In this document: positions 3,999 through 51,428 of the stretch, piece after piece
Position numbering within the stretch: position 1 is the stretch's first letter
How the letters are laid out: the number at the start of each line of letters is the position of its first letter
Assembly: GCF_001483965.1 (NCBI RefSeq)
Contig: NZ_CP010796.1
Coordinates: 1,240,001-1,304,000, forward strand
DNA from: Carnobacterium sp. CP1
GTDB lineage: Bacteria; Bacillota; Bacilli; Lactobacillales; Carnobacteriaceae
Direction: 5' to 3'
Length of the DNA stretch: 64,000 nucleotides
The notes under the pieces: generated by a model
What the model was told of the DNA's origin: nothing
Database searches by the model: none
What the model saw: the letters and a program-made list of their open reading frames with translations, nothing else
Position numbers and translations under genes: made by a program

Positions 3999-5978
3999 AT
4001 GTCAGTAATGGAACTTAAACAAATCAACAAATTTTATAAAATAGGCGGCGGAGGAACCTTTCACGCTTTAAAAGACATCAACTTATCTTTTGAAAAAGGC
4101 GAATTGGTTTCCATCATTGGTGAATCAGGAAGTGGGAAATCTACTTTAATGAATTTGCTCGGTGGTTTAGATACTACTTTTGATGGCGAAATTCTAGTGG
4201 ATGGGAAAAACATTGGCCACTATTCTGAAAGTGAATTGTCCGAATACCATAAAGAAAAAGTCGGTTTCGTTTTTCAAAGCTTTAATTTAATTTCGCATTT
4301 ATCCGTTTTGGATAACGTTGCTTTAGCCATGACGCTTTCTAATGTTCCCAAAGCTGAACGTGAAAAAAGAGCCAAAGAAACATTGGCTTTAGTTGGTTTG
4401 CAAGAACAATTAAATAAAAAACCCGATGCCATTTCTGGCGGACAAAAACAACGGGTGGCCATTGCGCGTGCTTTAGTAAATGATCCTGATATTATTATTG
4501 CCGATGAGCCAACCGGTTCATTAGATTCTGAAACTGCAGCGCAAGTCTTGGAAATCATTAAAGATATTGCTGAAACCGGCAAATTAGTCATTATGGTTAC
4601 TCACTCAGAAAAAGTAGCTGCTCATTCAAGCCGTGTGGTAACGATTGACGATGGTAAAGTTATCAACGATCAGCCTGGTATCGAATTGCATGTTAAAGAA
4701 AATGTTTTTAAAACCGAAAAAACCAATCGCAATAAAAACTTAAGTATATTTGGAGCCGCTAAATTGGCTTTGCTAAATATGAAAGAAAAATTATCGCGTA
4801 ATCTCCTAATTGCTTTAGGCAGTAGTATCGGCATTATGAGTGTCATCTTAATGTTATCTTTGGGTAGTGGCGTAAACAGCTACTTGACAAGTACAATGAA
4901 CAGTCAAGTCAACCCGTTAGTCAGCGAAGTGCATATGCCGCCAGAAGAGTCAGCTGGAGCAGACACGCCTGCTAATGAGATGATGGAAGCCAATCCTATT
5001 ATGAGTATGACCAAACAAACGCCTTTCGAACAAAAAAACATTGACGAATTGGCCGGTATCAAAAACGTTTCGGATGTGGAAGAAGGGTATACAAGTTTTT
5101 CAATTGGAACCAATAATGCAACATTTAATGATATTAAAGCGCCCTTCATGTATTTAACTACAGTATCTTCCATGATCACCAGCTCTGATATTCTCGAAGG
5201 ATCCTTGCCTGCTGAGGGAGAAGTCATGATTACTAATAACTTAGCTCAAACGTTTGATGATGAAGTAATAGGAAAAACTATCACTGTTGAAACCATCGTA
5301 AACGAACAAGCTCTTACATTAGATTTGATCGTTAGCGGCATCTATGGCAGTGATACAGCTGCTGGTCCTGCTGCAGCAATGGATAGTATTTATTTAGATT
5401 ACACTAGCCTAGCTAACTATTTAGAAGATGAAGGTGAGTCACTTGAGCCTAATGTCGTTTACTTGATCTCCAACGACAAAGACGCAACTCAAGGAATAAA
5501 GGACGATGTAAGCGAAATGGGTTACGAAGGTTCTTCTACCGAAGCTCTCGCTTCTACATTTAGTGAAATGTTAGATATCTTTACGTACATCTTATCAGGT
5601 GTTGCCGGAATTTCTCTGGTTGTTTCTGCGATTATGATTTTAACTGTTTTGTATATCAGTGTCGTCGAAAGAACGAAAGAAATTGGAGTTATCAAAGCTA
5701 TCGGCGGCCGTAAAAAAGATATTCGTCGTATCTTCGTTTCTGAATCATTTTTGATTGGCTTATTCAGTGGAGCAATTGGTGTTGGTATCGCTGCTCTATT
5801 GGCTTTAGTAGCCAACATTGCCACCAATAACTTATTCGATGTCAGTATTGTTACATTGACACCTACGTTTGCTATTGCTGGAATTGTTTTAAGTATCGTG
5901 ATCAGTATGATTGCCGGTGTCATGCCAGCTACTAAGGCTGCGAAATTAGATCCAGTTGAATCGTTAAGACGAGACTAA
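3999..5978 (+). CDS. MacB-like ABC exporter, ATPase-permease fusion
   Basis: 659 residues. Residues 1-225 form an ABC ATPase: Walker A GESGSGKST (about 45), signature ISGGQKQR, Walker B DIIIADEPTGSLDS and switch His in MVTHS. After a linker, a first membrane segment (about 265-285) is followed by an extracellular MacB-type core (about 290-510). Three C-terminal FtsX-type helices follow, with the typical ERTKEIGVIKAIGGRKKDI loop and a final AAKLDPVESLR. Such half-transporters dimerise and usually expel peptides or antimicrobials or sense cell-envelope stress. A TetR gene and operator upstream suggest induction by the exported compound. Confidence 0.85.
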   Translation: MSVMELKQINKFYKIGGGGTFHALKDINLSFEKGELVSIIGESGSGKSTLMNLLGGLDTTFDGEILVDGKNIGHYSESELSEYHKEKVGFVFQSFNLISHLSVLDNVALAMTLSNVPKAEREKRAKETLALVGLQEQLNKKPDAISGGQKQRVAIARALVNDPDIIIADEPTGSLDSETAAQVLEIIKDIAETGKLVIMVTHSEKVAAHSSRVVTIDDGKVINDQPGIELHVKENVFKTEKTNRNKNLSIFGAAKLALLNMKEKLSRNLLIALGSSIGIMSVILMLSLGSGVNSYLTSTMNSQVNPLVSEVHMPPEESAGADTPANEMMEANPIMSMTKQTPFEQKNIDELAGIKNVSDVEEGYTSFSIGTNNATFNDIKAPFMYLTTVSSMITSSDILEGSLPAEGEVMITNNLAQTFDDEVIGKTITVETIVNEQALTLDLIVSGIYGSDTAAGPAAAMDSIYLDYTSLANYLEDEGESLEPNVVYLISNDKDATQGIKDDVSEMGYEGSSTEALASTFSEMLDIFTYILSGVAGISLVVSAIMILTVLYISVVERTKEIGVIKAIGGRKKDIRRIFVSESFLIGLFSGAIGVGIAALLALVANIATNNLFDVSIVTLTPTFAIAGIVLSIVISMIAGVMPATKAAKLDPVESLRRD

Positions 5979-6023
5979 CTAAACGAAGTAAATTAAAAAA
6001 ACAATTAACTATAATTTTCTATA

Positions 6024-6080
6024 AAAAAACCATTCTTGATGGAGCTCAGTATTCTCTGAACCCTATCGGAATGGTTTTTT
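6024..6080. terminator. Bidirectional terminator between the ABC exporter and ydhK
   Basis: A 12-bp closing stem AAAAAACCATTC (6024-6035) with GAATGGTTTTTT (6069-6080) surrounds a 33-base loop. It offers T-runs to both converging genes. Confidence 0.7.
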
Positions 6081-6104
6081 CTTTTCGTTTAATTTATTGA
6101 AACC

Positions 6105-6713
6105 TTATTTTTCCGAAAGTTCGCTTTCTGTCACCCATTTATGATTCTTGACTTCTTTTCCGCCGTTTTTCGGCATATAATCGATCATATAAACTGTCGT
6201 TTGTTCTGCGTCTTCAATAGTTGCTGTTGCGCCTTTCATGCCCTCCATATGATTCGCTTCCAACTCTACTTCAGTGCCAGGTTCCAACATTTCTTGACCT
6301 GCATCCGCAATTTCTTCTTGGACGACCCATTTATGGTTTTCTACTCTTTCGCCTCCATTGGTCGGAGTATAAGTGACTTCATAGGCTATTGTGTCAAATG
6401 CACCTACAATCGTTGCTTCAGCGTCTTTCATACCGGCCATATGCGTTGTTTCAATAATCGCTTTATCGCCTACTTTATATTTAGGGTTTTCTGCTTCTTT
6501 TAGTCCATCTGGAATTTCTCCTGAATCTTCATGTTCCATGCTCTCCATACTTTCCATATCAGCATCACTCATTTCACTAGAAACTGAAGGTATGATGGAA
6601 TCGATACTTGATTCGCTGCTAGAATTTTCATTATTGTCTCCGGATGAACAAGCAGATAAAACGGTTAGAGTAGTCAAAGTGACCAACCCCATTAAAATTT
6701 TTCTTTTTTTCAT
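6105..6713 (-). CDS. ydhK: YdhK-family lipoprotein with two DUF1541 repeats
   Basis: 202 residues. The signal peptide has lipobox LSAC (Cys about 22). An acidic, Ser/Glu/Met-rich linker (about 25-75) contains MESMESMEHEDSGE. Two tandem DUF1541 units follow, each with a TxHMAGMKDAEATI or ANHMEGMKGATATI core and a closing NGGERVENHKWV or NGGKEVKNHKWV. The recurring His and Met residues suggest metal contact, but the family has no settled function. A GGAAG ribosome site precedes the ATG at 6713. It is convergent with the ABC exporter and upstream of no obvious operon partner. Confidence 0.82.
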   Translation of the reverse strand: MKKRKILMGLVTLTTLTVLSACSSGDNNENSSSESSIDSIIPSVSSEMSDADMESMESMEHEDSGEIPDGLKEAENPKYKVGDKAIIETTHMAGMKDAEATIVGAFDTIAYEVTYTPTNGGERVENHKWVVQEEIADAGQEMLEPGTEVELEANHMEGMKGATATIEDAEQTTVYMIDYMPKNGGKEVKNHKWVTESELSEK

Positions 6714-6824
6714 TACACTCTTCCTTTCTATTCACGTCCTATTCAACAGAATTAAACGCTTACAGTTGCTGTTTTAAACTATGCTCAGTTTATCTATGTT
6801 CCGGTTTTCTGTCAAAAGATTGGC

Positions 6825-7508
6825 TTACTCGCCTACAGAAAAATCAGCTTTTTCTACGATCACATGAGGAATAGCTTGTATTTCTTCCAACAAAACCGTT
6901 CCGTCTCGCGTACTGTTAGATCGCACTTCAAAAGTCGCAGAATATACTTTTTCATCTCCAGTCATTTTATCCGACACTTCATATTTTTGAAGATATTTGT
7001 GCTTTTTTCGAAGCAGCTGGATGACTTCTTGCAACGCCTCTTTTTCGGTTGTCGAAACGACAAAAGCAGTAGTTTTTGTGCCAATTTGTTTGAAAATGAT
7101 TGTGGTCAATTCAAAACCGATAAGCGTTAAAATAGTCGCACTGATTCCTACAAAGTACAAACCTCCGCCTACTGTCAAACCAATTCCAGCTGTTGTCCAT
7201 ATTCCGGCTGCGCTTGTCAGTCCTTTGATCGTGTGTTTTTGAATAATGATCATCCCAGCTCCAATAAAACCGATTCCGCTTACTACTTGAGCTGCAACCC
7301 TAGCCGGATCCAGCTCATACCCAGCTAAATCAATCACATCATTAAAGCCATGTTGAGAAATAATCATTATTAATGCGCTTCCTAATGAAACTAAAAAATG
7401 TGTTCTTATACCGGCTTCTTTTGCGCGCAACTCACGATTGATTCCAATAGCTCCCCCGAGAACACTGGCTAATATTAATCTCAGGAAAAAAATTTTATTC
7501 ATCTGCAT
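6825..7508 (-). CDS. MgtC/SapB-family membrane protein (copy 1)
   Basis: 227 residues. The N-terminal MgtC domain has four to five membrane helices with the family motifs GGAIGINRELRAKEAGIRTH, SGIGFIGAGMII and GLTSAAGIW. A soluble C-terminal ACT-like domain runs from about 140 to 227. MgtC proteins support growth in low Mg2+ or acid and modulate membrane energetics; the role in lactic acid bacteria is not settled. GAGG lies 5 bases before the ATG at 7508; a second ATG two codons in is a less likely start. A paralogue lies at 51.6 kb. I saw no M-box Mg2+ riboswitch upstream. Confidence 0.87.
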   Translation of the reverse strand: MQMNKIFFLRLILASVLGGAIGINRELRAKEAGIRTHFLVSLGSALIMIISQHGFNDVIDLAGYELDPARVAAQVVSGIGFIGAGMIIIQKHTIKGLTSAAGIWTTAGIGLTVGGGLYFVGISATILTLIGFELTTIIFKQIGTKTTAFVVSTTEKEALQEVIQLLRKKHKYLQKYEVSDKMTGDEKVYSATFEVRSNSTRDGTVLLEEIQAIPHVIVEKADFSVGE

Positions 7509-37244: not shown

Positions 37245-38708
37245 TTAAATAAACGCAAGTACAATAAAGTTTAAAATGAAAAGCCCTGTCGAAACCCATA
37301 AAACCGGATGAATCTCATTGGTTTTCTTTTTAGCTACTTTAACGATGACGAAAAAGATAAAACCAGCAGCAATTCCATAAGAAATGCTATACGCTAATCC
37401 CATAAAAATAGACGTGAAAAAGGCTGGGATAGCTTCTTCTAAATCGTCCCATTGAATTTCTAAAAAGGACGACATCATCATTACTCCCACAATAATCAAT
37501 GAAGGTGCTGTAGCTTGAACAGGAACAATAGCAATCAAAGAAGAAAATAAACTGGCCAACAAGAAAAGAATAGCTACCACTACACTGGTCAGCCCTGTTC
37601 TTCCTCCTGCACCGATTCCAGCAGCACTTTCGACAAACGTCGTGGTATTAGACGTTCCAAAAATAGCGCCAACAGACGTAGCAATCGCATCTGCAAATAA
37701 GGCTTTATCCATTTTCGATTTGATTCCAGAACTATTGTCCAAAGCTGCTTCATCTTCGGCAGTGAAGATACCTGTTTTGCGGCCTGTGCCAATAAAGGTC
37801 CCAATAGTATCGAAAATATCAGATAAACTAAAGGCAAAGATCGTCATTAATACTAGCGGCAAACGAGATGCATCTGAAAATAACGAGATCATTCCTTGAG
37901 AACCTAATGCAGCTCCAAATGTTACACGCAACTCTGAGATAGCATGGCCTAATGAATTTTCTGGATTTGAGATGACAGACAAATCAACAATGCCCATCGG
38001 AATTCCAATGATCGTTGTGGCGATAATGCCGATAAGAACCGCTCCTCGTACATTTAATACCACCAATATGACTGTGATAATCAAACCAATCAAAGCAAGT
38101 AAAGCACCGCTGCTTGTAAAATCAACTAATCCCGGAATAATCCCACCATCTGTTAGTACACTATTTATTCCACTGTCATAATTCGCAGCACTTGGATCAA
38201 ACGGCGCATTATTGATAGCTTGAATATTGGCTGTTTCAGAAGTGAATTGCAAAAAACCTGCATTCTTGATCCCGATATAAGCAACAAAAACGCCGATCCC
38301 GCCTCCAATAGCGTGTTGAATGAGTTCTGGAATCGATTTAATAATCATTTTACGGATTTTGGTTACGGTAATGAAAATATTAAAAATCCCGCATAGGAAA
38401 ACCATCGCCAAAGCTTCTTGCCAAGTAAAACCTAAAGCGAAAACAACTGTATAAGTAAAGAAGGCATTTAGTCCCATACCCGGTGCTTGTGCATAGGGCA
38501 CATTAGCGAATAAGCCCATCACCAACGTCCCGATAGCTGAAGCAATAAGTGTGGCCAAAAAGACTGCTTGCGAAGGCATGCCGGTCAAAGATAAAATTGC
38601 TGGATTGACAAAAATGATGTAAGACATGGCAAAAAAGGTCGTTATCCCTGCCATGACCTCTGTTGAAACGGTTGTCCCATGTTCTTTTAATTTGAAAAAA
38701 TTTTCCAT
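37245..38708 (-). CDS. pbuG: Guanine/hypoxanthine permease (AzgA/PbuG-like)
   Basis: About 487 residues with 12-13 membrane helices. It opens with the AzgA-class signature STEVMAGITTFFAMSYI and has NAFFTYTVVF and ATSVGAIFGTSNTTTFVESAAG. The ATG at 38708 was chosen over an in-frame GTG at 38723 because GGGGA is 8 bases upstream of it. A guanine-class riboswitch upstream supports hypoxanthine and/or guanine as substrate and predicts shut-off when guanine is plentiful. Confidence 0.9.
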   Translation of the reverse strand: MENFFKLKEHGTTVSTEVMAGITTFFAMSYIIFVNPAILSLTGMPSQAVFLATLIASAIGTLVMGLFANVPYAQAPGMGLNAFFTYTVVFALGFTWQEALAMVFLCGIFNIFITVTKIRKMIIKSIPELIQHAIGGGIGVFVAYIGIKNAGFLQFTSETANIQAINNAPFDPSAANYDSGINSVLTDGGIIPGLVDFTSSGALLALIGLIITVILVVLNVRGAVLIGIIATTIIGIPMGIVDLSVISNPENSLGHAISELRVTFGAALGSQGMISLFSDASRLPLVLMTIFAFSLSDIFDTIGTFIGTGRKTGIFTAEDEAALDNSSGIKSKMDKALFADAIATSVGAIFGTSNTTTFVESAAGIGAGGRTGLTSVVVAILFLLASLFSSLIAIVPVQATAPSLIIVGVMMMSSFLEIQWDDLEEAIPAFFTSIFMGLAYSISYGIAAGFIFFVIVKVAKKKTNEIHPVLWVSTGLFILNFIVLAFI

Positions 38709-38893: not shown

Positions 38894-38924
38894 TATTTAT
38901 GGACAAGTCAAAAAACTCATCTCA

Positions 38925-38990
38925 CTAATAGTCGAACGTTTTACGGTGTCCGGTAGAAACTTAAAGCCCATATCGCTTAGATTATATTAG
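38925..38990 (-). promoter_or_regulatory. Guanine-class purine riboswitch aptamer
   Basis: The minus strand has P1 arms CTAATA/TATTAG. Conserved joining segments are ATAATC, GATATGG, GTTTCTACC and GACTAT. The specificity base in GACTAT is C, which marks the guanine/hypoxanthine class; adenine members have U there. The loop-loop bases TATGGGCTTTAAGTT and CCGGACACCGTAAA fit P2 and P3. Confidence 0.92.
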
Positions 38991-39012
38991 ATTGTATTTA
39001 TTTGTCTTCATC

Positions 39013-44136: not shown

Positions 44137-44160
44137 TAACTATAACCTTTTTATACTATA

Positions 44161-44203
44161 CGCCCTTAAAATTAGACCAAATCTAATTTTAAGGGCGTTT
44201 TTT
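44161..44203 (+). terminator. Terminator of the chromate-transporter pair
   Basis: A perfect 16-bp stem, 44161-44176 with 44182-44197, is followed by TTTTTT. Confidence 0.92.
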
Positions 44204-44338
44204 ATTTATACCAAAAATTAAAATGAGAACGGAACTTATCATTTTCCTTATAATTAGGATAAAACCAGTTAAAACAACATCATAACCGCATATAACCGAA
44301 CTATTTAATCACAAATAAAAACTTCATTCGTTTTCATG

Positions 44339-44367
44339 TTGAATTCTGAGTACTTTTTCATTATACT
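44339..44367 (+). promoter_or_regulatory. Promoter of the Pot-like transporter operon
   Basis: TTGAAT (44339-44344), a 17-base spacer and TATACT (44362-44367). Transcription would begin near 44374, leaving a leader of about 130 bases. Confidence 0.7.
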
Positions 44368-44405
44368 TCCATTGTACATCATTATTTGCCATGAAAAATT
44401 TATGT

Positions 44406-44471
44406 GTTGGACTGTATGGGAAGCACTGATTGAATTCAGTCATCCATATTTTTAATTGTCCAGCTTTTTTT
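44406..44471 (+). terminator. Leader hairpin with terminator upstream of the Pot-like operon
   Basis: GTTGGAC (44406-44412) pairs with GTCCAGC (44458-44464, one G-U pair) and is followed by seven T. Inside, TATGG/CCATA and ACTGA/TCAGT stack with internal loops. A terminator within the 5' leader implies attenuation by an unidentified ligand, protein or peptide. I match it to no known riboswitch class. Confidence 0.65.
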
Positions 44472-44502
44472 ATGCCATTCATTCAAAAGGAGGTAGTTGG
44501 TT

Positions 44503-45336
44503 ATGCATAAAAAAATCCCGTATATCATTTTAGCACCGGGATTTATTCTCTTGTTCGTCTTTTTAATTCTTCCATTGATTTCTATCATTTGGCCGACTTT
44601 TTATGACGGCGGTTTATCGTTCAGTTCTTATTTATCTTTTTTTAAAGACCCCTATAACGTAGGAATCTTTGTTCGAACCGTACGAGTTTCACTTATTGTG
44701 ACCTTGATTTGTATTTTGTTTGGGGTTCCAGCAGCTTATTATATCGCTCGCAGTCCTAAAAAGTGGCGCAGCTTGTTGATGTCGATGACTCTTTTCCCTT
44801 TATTAACCAATTCTGTTGTGCGAAGTTTTGCTTGGATCAATATTCTAGGTAAAAATGGGGTTTTAAATATGATACTCTTAAAATTTAACCTTATCAATGA
44901 ACCACTCACTTTCTTGTATACAGAATTTTCTATTATTATCGGCTCTATTTATTTATTTTTGCCTCTAATGATCATCACTTTAGTCGGCATCATTGAGAAT
45001 ATTGATACTGAAATAACAGAAGCCGCGGAAACATTAGGAGCCAGTCCGCTGACAGCTTTCACGAAAGTCATTTTACCCTTAGCTATTCCAGGAATTATTG
45101 TTGGCAGTATTTTAGTCTTTACTGGGACTTTGACCGCTTATACAACTCCTCAATTATTAGGCGGAAACAAAAAAATGATGTTGTCTACGTTCCTTTACCA
45201 AAATGCTATGACCCTTGGAAATTGGAAAGATGCAAGCGTCATAGCGTTAATTATGATCATCACCACTCTCTTAGTTATGAAAGTTTTCAATGGTATTGCT
45301 GCATTGTTAGATAAACGAGGTGAAACACATGCGTAA
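44503..45336 (+). CDS. Pot-like ABC transporter permease 1 (PotB type)
   Basis: About 277 residues with six helices. It has FPLLTNSVVRSFAWINILGKNG and the coupling loop EAAETLGASPLTAFTKVILPLAIPG. The ATG at 44503 sits 9 bases after AGGAGG; the in-frame TTG at 44497 is too close. First gene of a four-gene importer whose order is permease, permease, ATPase, binding protein rather than the classical potABCD order. Confidence 0.88.
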   Translation: MHKKIPYIILAPGFILLFVFLILPLISIIWPTFYDGGLSFSSYLSFFKDPYNVGIFVRTVRVSLIVTLICILFGVPAAYYIARSPKKWRSLLMSMTLFPLLTNSVVRSFAWINILGKNGVLNMILLKFNLINEPLTFLYTEFSIIIGSIYLFLPLMIITLVGIIENIDTEITEAAETLGASPLTAFTKVILPLAIPGIIVGSILVFTGTLTAYTTPQLLGGNKKMMLSTFLYQNAMTLGNWKDASVIALIMIITTLLVMKVFNGIAALLDKRGETHA

Positions 45337-46108
45337 AAAAACAGGTTTGACTGCTTTAGTGGCTTTTATTTTTGCTTTTCTTTTTATTCCATTAATCATT
45401 ATTGTTGTTACTTCATTTGGAGAAAACCCCTCTATCCAATTCCCTATTGAAGGGTTTACTTTCAAATGGTATACGGCTATTTTTGCCAATGGAACATTTA
45501 CGGCTAGTTTCTTTTTAAGTCTACAACTATCTCTAATGGCTACTGGACTCGCTTTGATCGTGGGTATTCCTGCAGCTTACGCCTTGGCTCGTTACTCTGT
45601 TCGAGGGCGTAAATGGATCAAAAGTTTCTTTCTTTCGCCAACCATTGTTCCAGGAGTCGTTGTTGGCTACTCTCTTTTTCAATTCATTGTCATTCGCTGG
45701 CAACTGCCCGTTTTTCAAGGGTTATTGTTAGGACATTTCCTGATCAGTTTGCCTTATATTATCCGTGTAGTGGGAGGCAGTTTGGAACAGCTAGATTTTT
45801 CTATCGAAGAAGTAGCATGGACATTAGGCTGTACTAAAATCACTGCATTTATCAAAATCGTGTTGCCGAATATTACTTCAGGTATTTTCGCTTCCTTCAT
45901 GTTAGCTTTCATTAACTCTTTTAACAACATTCCAGTTTCTCAGTTTTTGTCAGGTCCAGGAATCTCTACATTACCGACGTCTTTAATGAATTATATTGAA
46001 TACAACTACGATCCAACTGTTTCGGCTTTATCTGTTCTTTTAATGATCGGCACGATTTTGTTGATGTATTTGATTGAAAAGACATTAGGTCTTGCGAGCG
46101 TTACCTAA
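45329..46108 (+). CDS. Pot-like ABC transporter permease 2 (PotC type)
   Basis: About 259 residues with six helices and the coupling loop EEVAWTLGCTKITAFIKIVLPNI. It overlaps permease 1 by 8 bases. The ATG at 45329 has GAGGTG 6 bases upstream; a GTG three codons earlier is part of that ribosome site. It pairs with permease 1 to form the channel. Confidence 0.88.
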   Translation: MRKKTGLTALVAFIFAFLFIPLIIIVVTSFGENPSIQFPIEGFTFKWYTAIFANGTFTASFFLSLQLSLMATGLALIVGIPAAYALARYSVRGRKWIKSFFLSPTIVPGVVVGYSLFQFIVIRWQLPVFQGLLLGHFLISLPYIIRVVGGSLEQLDFSIEEVAWTLGCTKITAFIKIVLPNITSGIFASFMLAFINSFNNIPVSQFLSGPGISTLPTSLMNYIEYNYDPTVSALSVLLMIGTILLMYLIEKTLGLASVT

Positions 46109-46166: not shown

Positions 46167-47207
46167 ATGTCATTCGTTGAATTAAAAGATATTCGGGTTA
46201 GTTACGATGGAAAAGACAATATTTTAAAAGATTTAAACCTTTCTTTGGAAAAAGGAGAACTGGTTTCTCTTTTGGGGCCTTCAGGATGTGGTAAAACAAC
46301 AACTCTTCGGGTTATCGCCGGATTAATCGAGCCTAATGATGGCAGTTTCATTGTTGATCAGGCTGAATTGACTAAAGTTCCTGTTCATAAAAGGAATTTT
46401 GGCATGGTTTTTCAAAGTTATGCTCTTTTTCCACACCTTACGATTAAAGAAAATGTTGGTTTCGGTTTAAAACTGCGGAAAGAAAAAAAAGCCGTTATTG
46501 AACAAAAAGTAATGGACATGTTAGAAGTAACCGGCTTAGCAGAGCTTTCCGACCGTTACCCCAAACAATTATCGGGCGGCCAAAGACAACGTGTTGCCTT
46601 GGCTCGTGCTCTCGTTATCGAACCAAAACTATTGTTGCTGGATGAGCCCTTAAGCAATTTAGATGCTAAATTACGAATCAACATGCGCATCGAGATCAAA
46701 CGCATTCAGCGACAATTAGGGATCACAACGGTTTTCGTTACTCATGATCAAGAAGAATGTTTTTCGATTTCTGATAAAGTGGCTGTCATGAATAAAGGCG
46801 TCATCGAGCAATACGATACACCAGAAGTTATTTACAACCATCCAAAATCTGAATTTGTCGCACGCTTTATTGGGTTTGAAAATTTCTTTGATTTACATAA
46901 ATACGATGGTCAAACTTATACAACCAATGACGGCAGTCTTTTTCACAGCTCTCGCCAATGGGAAAAAAACAAACAAACCGGCACGATTCGACCTGAAGAC
47001 ATTGGCATTTTGCCTACGCAAAACCATCCGCCGGAAAATACGGTCCTCGGCACAGTTTTAGTTCGAACCTTTTTAGGAAAAAGCTACCAATATGAAGTTG
47101 AAACAGCATTCGGAAAGTTATTAGTGAATGGCACACATACCATTCCTTATCAAGCAGGAGACACTCTGCTGCTTCACATACCTGAAGACAAATTGATACT
47201 GGTCTAA
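46167..47207 (+). CDS. Pot-like ABC transporter ATP-binding protein (PotA type)
   Basis: 346 residues. ATPase domain: Walker A GPSGCGKTTTLRV, Q-loop VFQSYALFPHL, signature LSGGQRQR, Walker B LLLLDEPLSNLDAK and switch VTHDQEEC. A C-terminal TOBE domain (about 270-346) includes IRPEDIGILP. The ATG at 46167 follows AAGGAGG at 8 bases. The open frame extends 25 codons further upstream into the permease gene, but that extension is non-homologous. Confidence 0.9.
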   Translation: MSFVELKDIRVSYDGKDNILKDLNLSLEKGELVSLLGPSGCGKTTTLRVIAGLIEPNDGSFIVDQAELTKVPVHKRNFGMVFQSYALFPHLTIKENVGFGLKLRKEKKAVIEQKVMDMLEVTGLAELSDRYPKQLSGGQRQRVALARALVIEPKLLLLDEPLSNLDAKLRINMRIEIKRIQRQLGITTVFVTHDQEECFSISDKVAVMNKGVIEQYDTPEVIYNHPKSEFVARFIGFENFFDLHKYDGQTYTTNDGSLFHSSRQWEKNKQTGTIRPEDIGILPTQNHPPENTVLGTVLVRTFLGKSYQYEVETAFGKLLVNGTHTIPYQAGDTLLLHIPEDKLILV

Positions 47208-47237: not shown

Positions 47238-48290
47238 ATGAAGAAAAAATGGAGTTTAGTAGGGTTAACGTTTTTGAGTGTAGGTTTGCTGGCTGCTTGC
47301 AGCAACAACGAGAGCGCAGATAACAAATCAAAAGAATTGGTAGTCTCAACATTTGCTTTAAGCGAAGATATTATTGAAGCCGATATTATAAAACCTTTTG
47401 AAGAAGCACACGACGTAAAAATCGTTATGGAAACTGGAACCAGCTCAGAGCGGTATACAAAATTTGAAAACAATCCGAATTCAACAGTAGATGTAATCGA
47501 ATTGTCGCAATCCAATGCTGCTAAAGGCTATGAAAAAGGGCTGTTTGCTGAAATCGATGCTGAAAAAGTTCCAAATATGGACGAATTAAGTGAAAAGGCA
47601 AAAGAACTATCGGCAGATGGTTCTGGTCCGGCAACGACCGTCAATAGTATCGGCATCATTTACAATGAAGAAGCAGCTGGTATGAAAATCGAGAATTGGT
47701 CAGATTTATGGGACCCTTCACTAGCAGGAAAAATATCTATTCCAGATATCACGACTACTTATGGACCCGCCATGATGTATGTAGCAAATGATTACAAAAA
47801 AGCAGACATTGAAACAGATAAAGGCAAAGGAGCTTTTAAAGGCTTAACTGAATTAGCACCGAATGTTTTAAAAACGTATAGCAAGTCTTCCGATTTAGCG
47901 AATTTATTCCAATCTGGTGAAATTGTAGCGGCAGTAGTCGGAGACTTTGCTTACCCGCTGATTTCTCAAGCGAATCCAACTGTTCAATATGTTTTTCCAG
48001 AATCCGGTACGTACGCTAACTACAATACGATCAACGTGAATACTAACTCGAAAAACAAAGAATTGGCTTATGAGTTTATCAACTGGAGAATTAGCCAAGA
48101 GTTGCAAGAAAAAACAGCTGAGTCGCTAAACGAAGCTCCTACGAATACTTCTGTTGTCTTAGATGAAGAAACAGCTCAACACAAAACATATGGTGAAGTT
48201 GCTGAGCGCACAACATCCCTCAATTTTGATTTCGTTAATGCTAATCTAGCAGACTGGATCAGTGAATGGAACCACACACTAAATCAATAA
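47238..48290 (+). CDS. PotD-like substrate-binding lipoprotein, ligand uncertain
   Basis: 350 residues with lipobox LAAC (Cys about 20). By eye it aligns with E. coli PotD over the C-terminal lobe (WSDLWDPSLAGKISIPD, then the NSKNKELAYEFINW stretch). Yet positions that bind polyamines in PotD differ: the Trp of the IWNGS segment is Val, the Trp and Asp of FWMDS are both Asn, and the Glu of the DDARE segment is Thr. A ligand other than spermidine or putrescine is likely. The ATG at 47238 gives a standard lipoprotein start; TTG at 47232 is the alternative. Confidence 0.83.
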   Translation: MKKKWSLVGLTFLSVGLLAACSNNESADNKSKELVVSTFALSEDIIEADIIKPFEEAHDVKIVMETGTSSERYTKFENNPNSTVDVIELSQSNAAKGYEKGLFAEIDAEKVPNMDELSEKAKELSADGSGPATTVNSIGIIYNEEAAGMKIENWSDLWDPSLAGKISIPDITTTYGPAMMYVANDYKKADIETDKGKGAFKGLTELAPNVLKTYSKSSDLANLFQSGEIVAAVVGDFAYPLISQANPTVQYVFPESGTYANYNTINVNTNSKNKELAYEFINWRISQELQEKTAESLNEAPTNTSVVLDEETAQHKTYGEVAERTTSLNFDFVNANLADWISEWNHTLNQ

Positions 48291-48329: not shown

Positions 48330-48389
48330 CTCCTTTAAAACTATTGTAAACTAAAGCAAAAAAACGCTTAGAATGGAGACTTGTTATCC

Positions 48390-50096
48390 ATGACGATTGA
48401 TTTACTGATAACTAATGCCAATGTATTCAATACCTTTTTAAAAACATTTGAACTTAAAAATGTTGCTATTCAAGATGGTAAGTTTTTTTATTTGAGTCCA
48501 GTTTCTGAAATGGATTTTGATTTTCTCGAACAACTAGATGCTAAAGGAAAAACAATGATTCCTGGCCTAATCGATATTCATTTGCATATTGAAAGTTCAA
48601 TGATTCCTCCTTCAATTTTTTCGAAAGTTGGCTTGACACATGGCGTAACGACTATTGTTGCTGATTCGCATGAAATCGCTAATGTGTTCGGAATCAAAGG
48701 GATCCAAGCTTTCCTTGCTGAAGAAACAGAAATGGATATCTTTTATGCCATTCCTTCTTCTGTTCCTTCAACTACTTCCAAACTAGAAACAACCGGCGGC
48801 ACTATTGGTATTGAAGAAGTTCGCGAACTGCTTGCTGACCCGCGAGTGATCGCTCTGGGGGAAGCCATGAATTTTAAAGGCATCACCAGCGAACCCGACT
48901 CTCTGATTCGACAAATATTGCGTGAAACCCAGACTTTAAAACCTTTCCTTCCTCTTGAAGGTCATATTCCTAGAGTATCAGGAATCGATTTGGCTAAGTT
49001 TATGTTTACAGGCATCACAGCCGACCACACTCACCAAACCCCTGAATCGATTTATGAAAAAATCAGCTCGGGGATGTTTATTGAATTGCAAAAGAAGTCG
49101 CTCACTAAAGAAAATCTAGCGTTGATTGCCAAGTACAACTTTTATGAGTACCTAGCTATTATTACAGATGACATTATGGCTGATGATTTACTGGAAGGTC
49201 ACTTAAACGCAAATGTTAAGCTGGCTATTGAATGTGGCATGCCCGTCGAACAAGCAATTTATACGAGTACCTATACGCCAGCTAGAAGAATGGGATTCCA
49301 AGATCGCGGAGCTATTGCCTCTGGCTTTATCGCCGACTTTATTTTGTTGGACGATGTTAAGTCTCTGGATATTTCGGCGGTCTACAAAGCAGGAAAATTA
49401 GTCCATACTAAAGGAGAACAAATAGGCTATCCTGAAATAAAACCGCAATTTCCTGAAAACTTTTATCATTCACTACATTGTAAAAAAACAACGCTGGAAG
49501 ACTTCAAAATACCAGTAAATTCAACTTCCGATGCTGTATTATGCAATGTGATCCGCATTCAGGAAACCAGTACGTTTACAGAACATGTTCAACGCGAAAT
49601 TCCTGTTAAAGACGGATACTTGGATTGGGAAACAAGCGGACTGGCTTTATTAATGGTCATGGAGCGCTATGGGAAAAATGGGAATATCGCTTACGCTCTA
49701 GTAGAGAATACGATTAGCAAAAAAGGAGCCATTGCTACCACTTGGGCTCATGACCATCATAATTTGATGGTTATGGGGACGGCCGCTGAAGATATGATGC
49801 TTGCTCAACACCAGTTATTAGAAATGGAAGGCGGTTATGTGGTCATCCAAGACAAACAAGTGAGTGGATCCTGCCCGTTGCCTATCGGCGGTATCTTAAG
49901 CGATAAGCCTATTCAAGAATTAGGCCGCCAATTAAAAGAAGTACGGCAAGGGATGGTTGCTTTAGGATACAAAAATGCTAATGAAATTATGTCCTTTTCT
50001 ACCCTTTCCTTACCCGTTTCACCAAATATTAAAATTACAGACGTGGGTATGATGGATGTACGAACCCAAGAATTGATACCATTAATGGAGGGTTAA
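48390..50096 (+). CDS. ade: Adenine deaminase
   Basis: 568 residues of the Ade amidohydrolase family. Metal ligands lie in IDIHLHIESSMIPPS and VADSHEIANVFG. The Ade-specific C-terminal domain has TTWAHDHHNLMVMGT and GGYVVIQDKQVSGSCPLPIGGILS. It converts adenine to hypoxanthine and ammonia. The ATG at 48390 is chosen over TTG at 48381, which lies only 2 bases from GGAG. It is followed after 3 bases by the MTA/SAH-type deaminase, so the two form a purine-deaminating pair. Confidence 0.93.
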   Translation: MTIDLLITNANVFNTFLKTFELKNVAIQDGKFFYLSPVSEMDFDFLEQLDAKGKTMIPGLIDIHLHIESSMIPPSIFSKVGLTHGVTTIVADSHEIANVFGIKGIQAFLAEETEMDIFYAIPSSVPSTTSKLETTGGTIGIEEVRELLADPRVIALGEAMNFKGITSEPDSLIRQILRETQTLKPFLPLEGHIPRVSGIDLAKFMFTGITADHTHQTPESIYEKISSGMFIELQKKSLTKENLALIAKYNFYEYLAIITDDIMADDLLEGHLNANVKLAIECGMPVEQAIYTSTYTPARRMGFQDRGAIASGFIADFILLDDVKSLDISAVYKAGKLVHTKGEQIGYPEIKPQFPENFYHSLHCKKTTLEDFKIPVNSTSDAVLCNVIRIQETSTFTEHVQREIPVKDGYLDWETSGLALLMVMERYGKNGNIAYALVENTISKKGAIATTWAHDHHNLMVMGTAAEDMMLAQHQLLEMEGGYVVIQDKQVSGSCPLPIGGILSDKPIQELGRQLKEVRQGMVALGYKNANEIMSFSTLSLPVSPNIKITDVGMMDVRTQELIPLMEG

Positions 50097-50099
50097 ATA

Positions 50100-51428
50100 A
50101 TGAAGACACTTATTAAAGACGTTTATGTCTTAACCATGAACAACAAAAAAGACGTGTACAAAAACGGCTACGTTCTCTTAGAAGACGATCAGATTCTAGC
50201 AGTAGGTTCAATGCAAGATTTAACTAAAGAAGCAGCTTACGATAAAATCATTGAAGGTGGACACGCCATCGCTATGCCAGGAATGATCAATAGCCATACT
50301 CATATTGGGATGATCCCTTTTCGTTCATTAGGCGACGATTCCCCTGACCGTTTGCGCCGCTTTCTCTTTCCTTTAGAAAAAGCCTGCATGACCAAAGAGT
50401 TAGCCTACCATAGTGCTAAATACGCTATTGCGGAAATGCAGTTAGCCGGTGTCACTACTTTTATGGATATGTATTATTTTGAAAACGAACTGGCTGTAGC
50501 GACAGATGAAATGGGCTCCCGAGCACTATTAGGCGAAACCGTTATTGACTTCGAAACATGCGATACAACTGAAGTTTATGGCGGGCTAAAAGTTGCGGAA
50601 GAATTTATTCCTAAATGGTTGAACCATAAATTGATCACACCAGCCATTGCACCTCATGCCCCTAATACAAATAGCCCAGAAGCTTTATTAGAAGCTTGCC
50701 GTCTCTCTGAAAAATACAATGTTCCTATCACAATGCACTTGAGTGAAATGGATTATGAAATGCAGTATTTTAACGAACACTATAAAACGACTCCTGTAGA
50801 ATTTCTTGAAAGCATCGGTTTCTTAAAAGAAAATAGCCGTTTGATTGCTGCTCATTGTATTCATCTAACGGATCTGGATATCGAATTGTTGGAAAAATTT
50901 GATGTTGCAGTAGCCCATTGCATTGGAGCTAATACAAAGTCAGCTAAAGGAGTTGCTCGCATCCACGACATGTTGGCTCATAACATTCGTGTTGGACTTG
51001 GCACAGATGGGCCCAGCAGCGGCAACACATTAGATTTGTTTACCCAAATGAAATTGTTTGCAAATTTCCATAAAACGACCTTAAAAGATCGAGGGGCATT
51101 TCCGGCAGCAGAGATCGTCGATTTAGCAACCATGGGCGGTGCACGGGCTTTAAAATTGGATGATACAGTTGGTTCATTGGAACCTGGCAAAAAAGCCGAT
51201 TTGGTTTTAGTTGAAACTGATTCGGTCAATATGTTCCCGTTGTTTGATCCGTATGCTGTTCTAGTGTATTCCGCTAATGCGAGCAATGTGAGAGATGTCT
51301 TTATCAATGGCGAGGCAGTCGTTCGAAATAAACGATTGATCCGCTATAGTTTAGCTGCATTACGAGAAACTCTTTATTCACACATGGGTGATTTTTCAAA
51401 AACGGCCAAAATCTATGCAGCTGAATGA
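50100..51428 (+). CDS. mtaD: 5'-methylthioadenosine/S-adenosylhomocysteine deaminase-like amidohydrolase
   Basis: 442 residues. Metal-binding motifs: NSHTHIGMIPF, PHAPNTNSPE, ITMHLSEMDYE, AAHCIHLT and GLGTDGPSSGNTLDLFTQM. These match the MTA/SAH deaminase and TrzN/AtzB-like group, with adenosine-class 6-amino groups as usual substrates. It starts 3 bases after ade. The exact substrate (MTA, SAH, adenosine or another aminopurine) is not decided by sequence. Confidence 0.85.
   Translation: MKTLIKDVYVLTMNNKKDVYKNGYVLLEDDQILAVGSMQDLTKEAAYDKIIEGGHAIAMPGMINSHTHIGMIPFRSLGDDSPDRLRRFLFPLEKACMTKELAYHSAKYAIAEMQLAGVTTFMDMYYFENELAVATDEMGSRALLGETVIDFETCDTTEVYGGLKVAEEFIPKWLNHKLITPAIAPHAPNTNSPEALLEACRLSEKYNVPITMHLSEMDYEMQYFNEHYKTTPVEFLESIGFLKENSRLIAAHCIHLTDLDIELLEKFDVAVAHCIGANTKSAKGVARIHDMLAHNIRVGLGTDGPSSGNTLDLFTQMKLFANFHKTTLKDRGAFPAAEIVDLATMGGARALKLDDTVGSLEPGKKADLVLVETDSVNMFPLFDPYAVLVYSANASNVRDVFINGEAVVRNKRLIRYSLAALRETLYSHMGDFSKTAKIYAAE

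Follow-up and report, generated by a model that had tools for sequence, protein, structure and literature searches.

The potBCAD-ade-amidohydrolase operon of Carnobacterium sp. CP1 is very probably a purine-salvage operon controlled by PurR at transcription initiation, as judged from the PurBoxes found upstream of its orthologues in the order, and from the purine riboswitch that precedes the same operon in Erysipelotrichaceae and allied bacteria. The PurBox pair was overlooked in an earlier sequence-only reading of the window (the whole 64-kb stretch of DNA that was analysed), and would represent the main switch of the operon. The hairpin in the leader, which was the focus of that reading, is a probable, but not certain, intrinsic terminator. 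In the account favoured here, with modest confidence, a PurR-type promoter is combined with a leader terminator, specific to the lineage, by which readthrough into a purine-salvage operon is reduced or made conditional (Table 1). PurR would set the level of initiation according to the purine supply, sensed as PRPP, by either repression or activation. A fraction of the transcripts would then stop in the T tract, releasing a leader RNA of ~98 nt, and the remaining transcripts would read through into the structural genes. The terminator may be a lineage-specific addition that lowers readthrough, or modulates it under some condition, and in the latter case would provide a second layer of control on the PurR promoter. 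Counting against this account are the lack of conservation of the hairpin, its large asymmetric inner loop, the lack of the exact PurBox pair in 33 of 56 orthologous leaders, and the finding that roughly one shuffled leader in 100 equals the hairpin. A leader terminator is an ordinary kind of element and of modest interest; the main gain concerns the operon rather than the hairpin, the likely substrate of the importer moving from polyamine to purine.

Table 1. Predicted features of the operon, its leader and the adjacent upstream region (positions in the window)
Feature	Position	Strand	Basis
Intrinsic terminator of the upstream chromate-transporter-family genes	44160..44198	+	17-pair stem, 5-nt loop, T-rich tail; -23.3 kcal/mol
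PurBox 1 (predicted), CGAA at 44297-44300	44292..44305	+	pattern search of own genome; exact pair, 26-nt core gap
PurBox 2 (predicted), inverted, TTCG at 44327-44330	44322..44335	-	pattern search; 16-bp spacer from box 1
Sigma-70-type promoter (predicted), TTGAAT-N17-TATACT	44339..44367	+	promoter scan; position relative to PurBoxes common to orthologues
Three-helix hairpin, 59 nt	44406..44464	+	fold -17.9 kcal/mol; shuffles; P1 pair probabilities 0.98-1.00
Seven-T tail of the probable leader terminator	44465..44471	+	sequence
Ribosome binding site of potB, AAAAGGAGG	44485..44493	+	sequence
PotB-like ABC permease gene	44503..45336	+	PF00528; top NCBIfam match PotB, 162.5 bits vs cut-off 348
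PotC-like ABC permease gene	45329..46108	+	Pfam/NCBIfam, below NCBIfam cut-offs
PotA-like ABC ATPase gene	46170..47207	+	best 25 NCBIfam matches all below cut-offs
PotD-like substrate-binding protein gene	47238..48290	+	PF13416; weak PotD match, 58 bits vs cut-off 582
Adenine-deaminase-family gene	48381..50096	+	PF13382; TIGR01178 376 bits, below cut-off 472.5
Amidohydrolase gene (TRZ/ATZ, nucleoside- or base-deaminase-like)	50100..51428	+	PF01979; best NCBIfam matches below cut-offs

The closest known counterparts of the upstream region are the PurR/PurBox systems of Bacillus and Lactococcus. The PurR boxes of B. subtilis, as set out in passages of PMC8789054, are 14 bp long, separated by a spacer of 16 or 17 bp and positioned just upstream of the -35 element, and PurR is a repressor in Bacillus according to the same passages. 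The Lactococcus protein is presented in parts of PMC3547956 as a PRPP-responsive activator, with the PurBox motif AWWWCCGAACWWT. The predicted sites in the window share with both systems the arrangement of two inverted 14-bp boxes (with limits set from the box description in PMC8789054), the central CGAA and TTCG, the 16-bp spacer and the location upstream of the -35 element. All eight core bases match, and the gap between the cores corresponds exactly to that spacer. In addition, a PurR homologue is encoded in the same genome (TIGR01743, 395.6 bits against a family cut-off of 258.7), and all 18 family genomes that were searched likewise encode one each.

Orthologues of the operon were identified in 57 of 395 genomes, and the leaders of 56 were analysed, a broken copy (L016) being left out. 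The exact arrangement CGAA-N26/27-TTCG is present in 23 of these 56 order-genome leaders, the window included, and the other 28 gap lengths from 15 to 44 nt together account for only 16 occurrences of a CGAA/TTCG pair in the same leaders. Several order-genome leaders are, by eye, identical to those of Trichococcus, Vagococcus and Enterococcus loci. Many of the 33 leaders that lack the exact pair have single CGAAC boxes, again by eye. For 45 of the 46 named loci the leader was analysed, and the exact pair was found in three, each with a gap of 27 nt and none with a gap of 26. In 20 of the 23 exact-pair leaders, the first box is located 74-76 nt ahead of the start predicted from the best promoter (-75 in the window; -63, -69 and -89 in the remaining three), the promoter having been sought only 18-46 nt past the second PurBox. 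A loose PurBox pattern is not rare across the genome, with 36 matches versus 41 for a reversed control, and the case for the PurBoxes therefore rests on position and conservation.

Two further pairs were noted elsewhere. A pair of the same kind, with a gap of 27 nt, precedes a GMP reductase gene (TIGR01306, 648 bits, cut-off 466) in the same genome (L127 1511-1545; G000:C1:1979010-1979044). By eye, this pair is downstream of a promoter-like sequence, an arrangement for which repression would be expected. A PurBox-like pair is also situated upstream of a gene for a GntR-family regulator (PF00392; L126 1551-1585, G000:C1:1053050-1053084), and the C-terminal portion of a purB-like reading frame is found ~1.1 kb away.

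The sequence-only reading had described a clear promoter, followed within about 32 nucleotides by a 59-nt hairpin and seven T residues, all before the first ribosome site, and this layout is borne out by the sequence and by promoter and terminator scans. The -35 (TTGAAT, 44339-44344) and -10 (TATACT, 44362-44367) elements are separated by 17 bp and place the predicted start at ~44374, giving a leader of 129 nt to the AUG codon of potB. With 9 of 12 consensus matches the promoter does not exceed chance for the region, where six such matches were observed against a shuffle mean of 9.5; its credibility derives from its position relative to the PurBoxes and not from its consensus score. No other promoter-like match was found by the scan on the + strand between 44368 and 44503, and the operon is therefore probably expressed by readthrough of the leader hairpin. 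The original reading would have been undone if a transcript from upstream ended at the hairpin. This is unlikely, since the upstream genes, which belong to the chromate-transporter family (PF02417), have a terminator of their own, and the hairpin is not needed as the end of their operon. The least probable of all the readings considered is that the hairpin either ends that upstream transcript, against which the predicted promoter between the two terminators also argues, or mediates attenuation through translation of a leader peptide. In favour of a leader peptide, two short ATG frames that cross the hairpin can be discerned by eye, from 44392 (12 codons) and from 44403 (17 codons), but neither is preceded by a recognisable ribosome site. 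The promoter and terminator would mark out a distinct RNA of ~98 nt, and could constitute mainly a small-RNA gene from which readthrough feeds the operon. This reading is very improbable, because in orthologues that have no hairpin the PurBoxes and promoter are nevertheless part of the operon, and because no copies or relatives of such an RNA were found.

Pfam and NCBIfam searches on the operon recovered two BPD permeases, an ABC ATPase, a solute-binding protein, an adenine-deaminase-family protein and a TRZ/ATZ-type amidohydrolase. Among the best 25 NCBIfam matches for each protein, none of the six proteins passed a family cut-off, and thus the polyamine names for the transporter are not secured. 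Both the ade and amidohydrolase genes are found downstream of potB in 33 of the 46 named loci that encode a PotB relative, and some of the 13 loci without both genes end at contig ends. An ABC importer encoded with two deaminase-type hydrolases suggests that the operon probably functions to import and deaminate purines, with a purine as the importer substrate being a prediction made from the regulation. By sequence models a potBCAD-like importer would transport spermidine/putrescine, but here two regulatory systems, independent of each other and found in different Firmicutes, link such an importer to purines: Lactobacillales have PurBoxes, and Erysipelotrichaceae and their allies have guanine-type riboswitches. 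These links predict a purine-type substrate and caution against the polyamine annotation. In the portions of the open-licence literature searched, neither a link of the potBCAD-ade-amidohydrolase operon to PurR or to a riboswitch, nor a leader of the kind seen here, was found.

The second of these regulatory systems is evident from Rfam scans of 21 of the 46 named loci, which identified the purine riboswitch RF00167 in 15, at 43-163 nt before the potB match; the loci were partly picked by eye for a riboswitch-like leader, and the fraction is not to be taken as a survey. Two of the matches (L061 and L067) are barely above the gathering score. In known purine riboswitches a particular C denotes the guanine type, and this C is present in all 15. 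The riboswitch-bearing loci carry the labels Erysipelotrichaceae, Holdemania, Massilimicrobiota, Thomasclavelia, Eubacterium and Firmicutes. RF00167 was absent from six of the 21 scanned loci (L036, L037, L038, L042, L060 and L064), with the leader of L060 resembling, by eye, that of L061, and was absent from all 15 order relatives scanned. The presence of RF00167 on the same operon elsewhere indicates that the operon is under purine control in other Firmicutes families too. In these bacteria the guanine riboswitch attenuators occupy the leader of the orthologous operons, whereas the leader in the window has no RF00167 match, even at a lax threshold. The window does encode an RF00167 riboswitch at 38909-39009 on the - strand (67.4 bits), which precedes a gene of the Xan_ur_permease family (PF00860; 37245-38723).

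Leader attenuators of Firmicutes that use an intrinsic terminator consist of a promoter, a short leader, a GC-richer stem with a T tail, and then the ribosome site. The leader in the window presents the same order of elements, but lacks a recognised sensor, and in place of a clear antiterminator has just a weaker alternative pairing of one arm of the stem. The hairpin is closed by the 7-bp helix P1 (GTTGGAC, 44406-44412, with GTCCAGC, 44458-44464), which encloses two further helices (GTATGGG/TCCATAT and ACTGA/TCAGT) as well as an inner loop that is large and asymmetric. The stable stem (-17.9 kcal/mol) is followed directly by the T7 tract, as in an intrinsic terminator, and a d'Aubenton-type score is positive (4.5). 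The hairpin with its T7 tract also stands well ahead of the majority of shuffled leaders. The pair probabilities of P1 are 0.98-1.00, and the best of the folds that lack this helix lie 6.1-8.2 kcal/mol higher in energy. In a folding model of the growing RNA, an early pairing of the 5' arm of P1, GUUGGA with UUUAAU, forms first and is displaced once the 3' arm appears, with an energy gap of 6.1 kcal/mol; on this modelling the early pairing is the only built-in candidate for an antiterminator, and a weak one. Modelled folding and the T tract together make the hairpin a probable intrinsic terminator, falling short of certainty. Thus, of the leader attenuator proposed originally, the ordered promoter, terminator-like hairpin and ribosome site stand as a plausible leader terminator, and the aptamer part is unsupported.

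A rival reading, which is doubtful but carries more weight than the others, is that the hairpin arose by chance or is weak, and hardly affects expression, and that PurR alone controls the operon. Consistent with this idea, the energy of the hairpin is equalled by 6 of 500 and by 39 of 4000 leader shuffles, in both cases with five or more T required among the eight tail positions. The 67-nt stretch that holds the hairpin has a fold energy of -15.4 kcal/mol (z -2.12, with 8 of 200 shuffles as good) and its antisense strand is equally folded (z -2.14, 7 of 200), and in neither of two computations is the complete leader unusually structured (z -1.05 and -0.09). Moreover, counting both strands and including the leader hairpin, the window holds 24 hairpins of -17.9 kcal/mol or below with T-rich tails, of which at least two lie inside genes (45404-45477 on the + strand and 37551-37622 on the - strand), and so energy and a T tail are not by themselves proof of a terminator. 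In a Markov sequence of local composition and 180,000 bases, two hairpins reach -17.8 kcal/mol with a T-rich tail. The rival is also favoured by the absence of the hairpin from the same-genus orthologue described below, and by the other leaders: in the 130 nt that immediately precede the potB match of 67 loci (56 order-genome and 11 named), no other leader has a transcribed terminator of comparable energy. The nearest is in L114 (-17.2 kcal/mol, with a weak tail), where the predicted leader is only 43 nt long and the hairpin consequently begins before the transcript. What argues against a chance structure is the uninterrupted T7 tract exactly after a 7-pair stem, since with a tail of at least seven T only 5 of 4000 leader shuffles reach -17.9 kcal/mol.

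The favoured account, of a PurR-type promoter and a lineage-specific terminator, has next to be set against the possibility that the hairpin senses a ligand. The sequence-only reading had found no resemblance to purine, preQ1 or guanidine classes, and this holds for all Rfam families, with no family matching the leader at the gathering score, in a scan that recovered the purine riboswitch at 38909-39009 as a positive control, and nothing credible matching at a lax threshold (the best match being to a snoRNA family, E-value 0.34, 17 bits against a cut-off of 95). Its further suggestion, that the inner loops form a small aptamer, gained no support, as neither Rfam nor DNA and covariance searches produced a related hairpin. 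A search of orthologous leaders, which had been proposed as a source of covariation, yielded no related hairpin in 58 sources or 118 order genomes; this outcome fails to support an aptamer without refuting it, covariation being measurable only among homologous hairpins. The own genome has no second copy of the leader, the best other match being 29 nt long (E 0.04). When the leader DNA was compared with the 18 family genomes, only three short matches of 24-35 nt (E 0.005-0.009) were found outside the own genome, and there was no match to plasmids. A covariance model built from the single sequence was run against the window and 57 loci (58 sources; L016 and L149 were left out, as were 44 of the 46 named loci), and the window alone scored clearly; the next matches, in L031/L111 (E 0.078), start inside the potB gene. 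With stricter filters, the same approach on 118 order genomes returned the own genome and matches of 35 and 38 nt (E 0.008 and 0.025), which are no more than chance.

Within the genus, the operon is present in one of the four other members examined (G003). Its leader has the PurBoxes and promoter in common with the window, and no comparable hairpin (-2.0 kcal/mol at best, and none under a stricter rule). On the sequences of the genomes examined, the leader hairpin is thus lineage-specific. The leader of the same-genus orthologue (L012/L130) appears, by eye, to have a second inverted PurBox-like pair in its 5' leader, at the place where the window has the hairpin.

If the hairpin represents a new riboswitch class, the inner helices would form an aptamer, for a purine or for the substrate of the transporter, that stabilises or destabilises P1. 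This arrangement is suggested by a leader terminator before a transporter operon, by helices and loops inside P1, by the modelled competing P1 pairing, and by orthologues elsewhere that carry a purine riboswitch at the same place. It is nonetheless unlikely, given the lack of any Rfam match or of a homologue by DNA or covariance model, the single occurrence in the genome, the presence of only 32 A/T-rich nucleotides between the start and P1, and the purine control already provided by PurR. In a more specific form, which is quite unlikely, the hairpin would be a rare, recently evolved metabolite-sensing terminator, its stem enclosing a compact aptamer, and in one lineage of the family would perform the function that the guanine riboswitch has for the orthologous operon in other bacteria; the same operon would then have acquired purine control at the RNA level independently, in addition to PurR. 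Control of antitermination by a protein or a trans-acting RNA, whereby an RNA-binding regulator decides on readthrough, is compatible with a leader terminator that has no recognised aptamer. Here again no Rfam family was matched and no second copy of the element exists in the genome, making this explanation very unlikely.

Other leader structures were observed in the course of these comparisons. In sister genera, six leaders (L002, L003, L004, L005, L007 and L008) have short hairpin-like stretches with U-rich tails directly before the ribosome site. When folded alone, four of the six stretches, all chosen by eye, have z-scores of -2.85 to -3.77, and the other two of -0.26 and -0.58. A conserved attenuator in these genera (g3 and g4) is not claimed, as in unbiased shuffles of the leaders the best case was equalled in 15 of 500, and the other five in 35 to 197 of 500. 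A repeat of TTGAATTC in the -35 element and in the hairpin loop was also considered and set aside, as 11 copies in the window against 7.5 expected is not remarkable, and a repeat search gave no repeats of 10 or more.

A different fold is predicted for the leaders of L109, L110 and L111, where a UUAGUG/CACUAA helix adjoins the ribosome site, and a U-rich stretch pairs with the ribosome site. Four of the 20 predicted pairs are changed on both sides, among only three sequences, and the fold is a possible translational control element. The leaders of L110 and L111 match, by eye, those of named Trichococcus loci. Lastly, a segment of the small second contig of the genome (L155, ~4628-7263) matches Enterococcus plasmid segments that are annotated with a CadD cadmium resistance transporter, an ArsR/SmtB regulator and an integrase.
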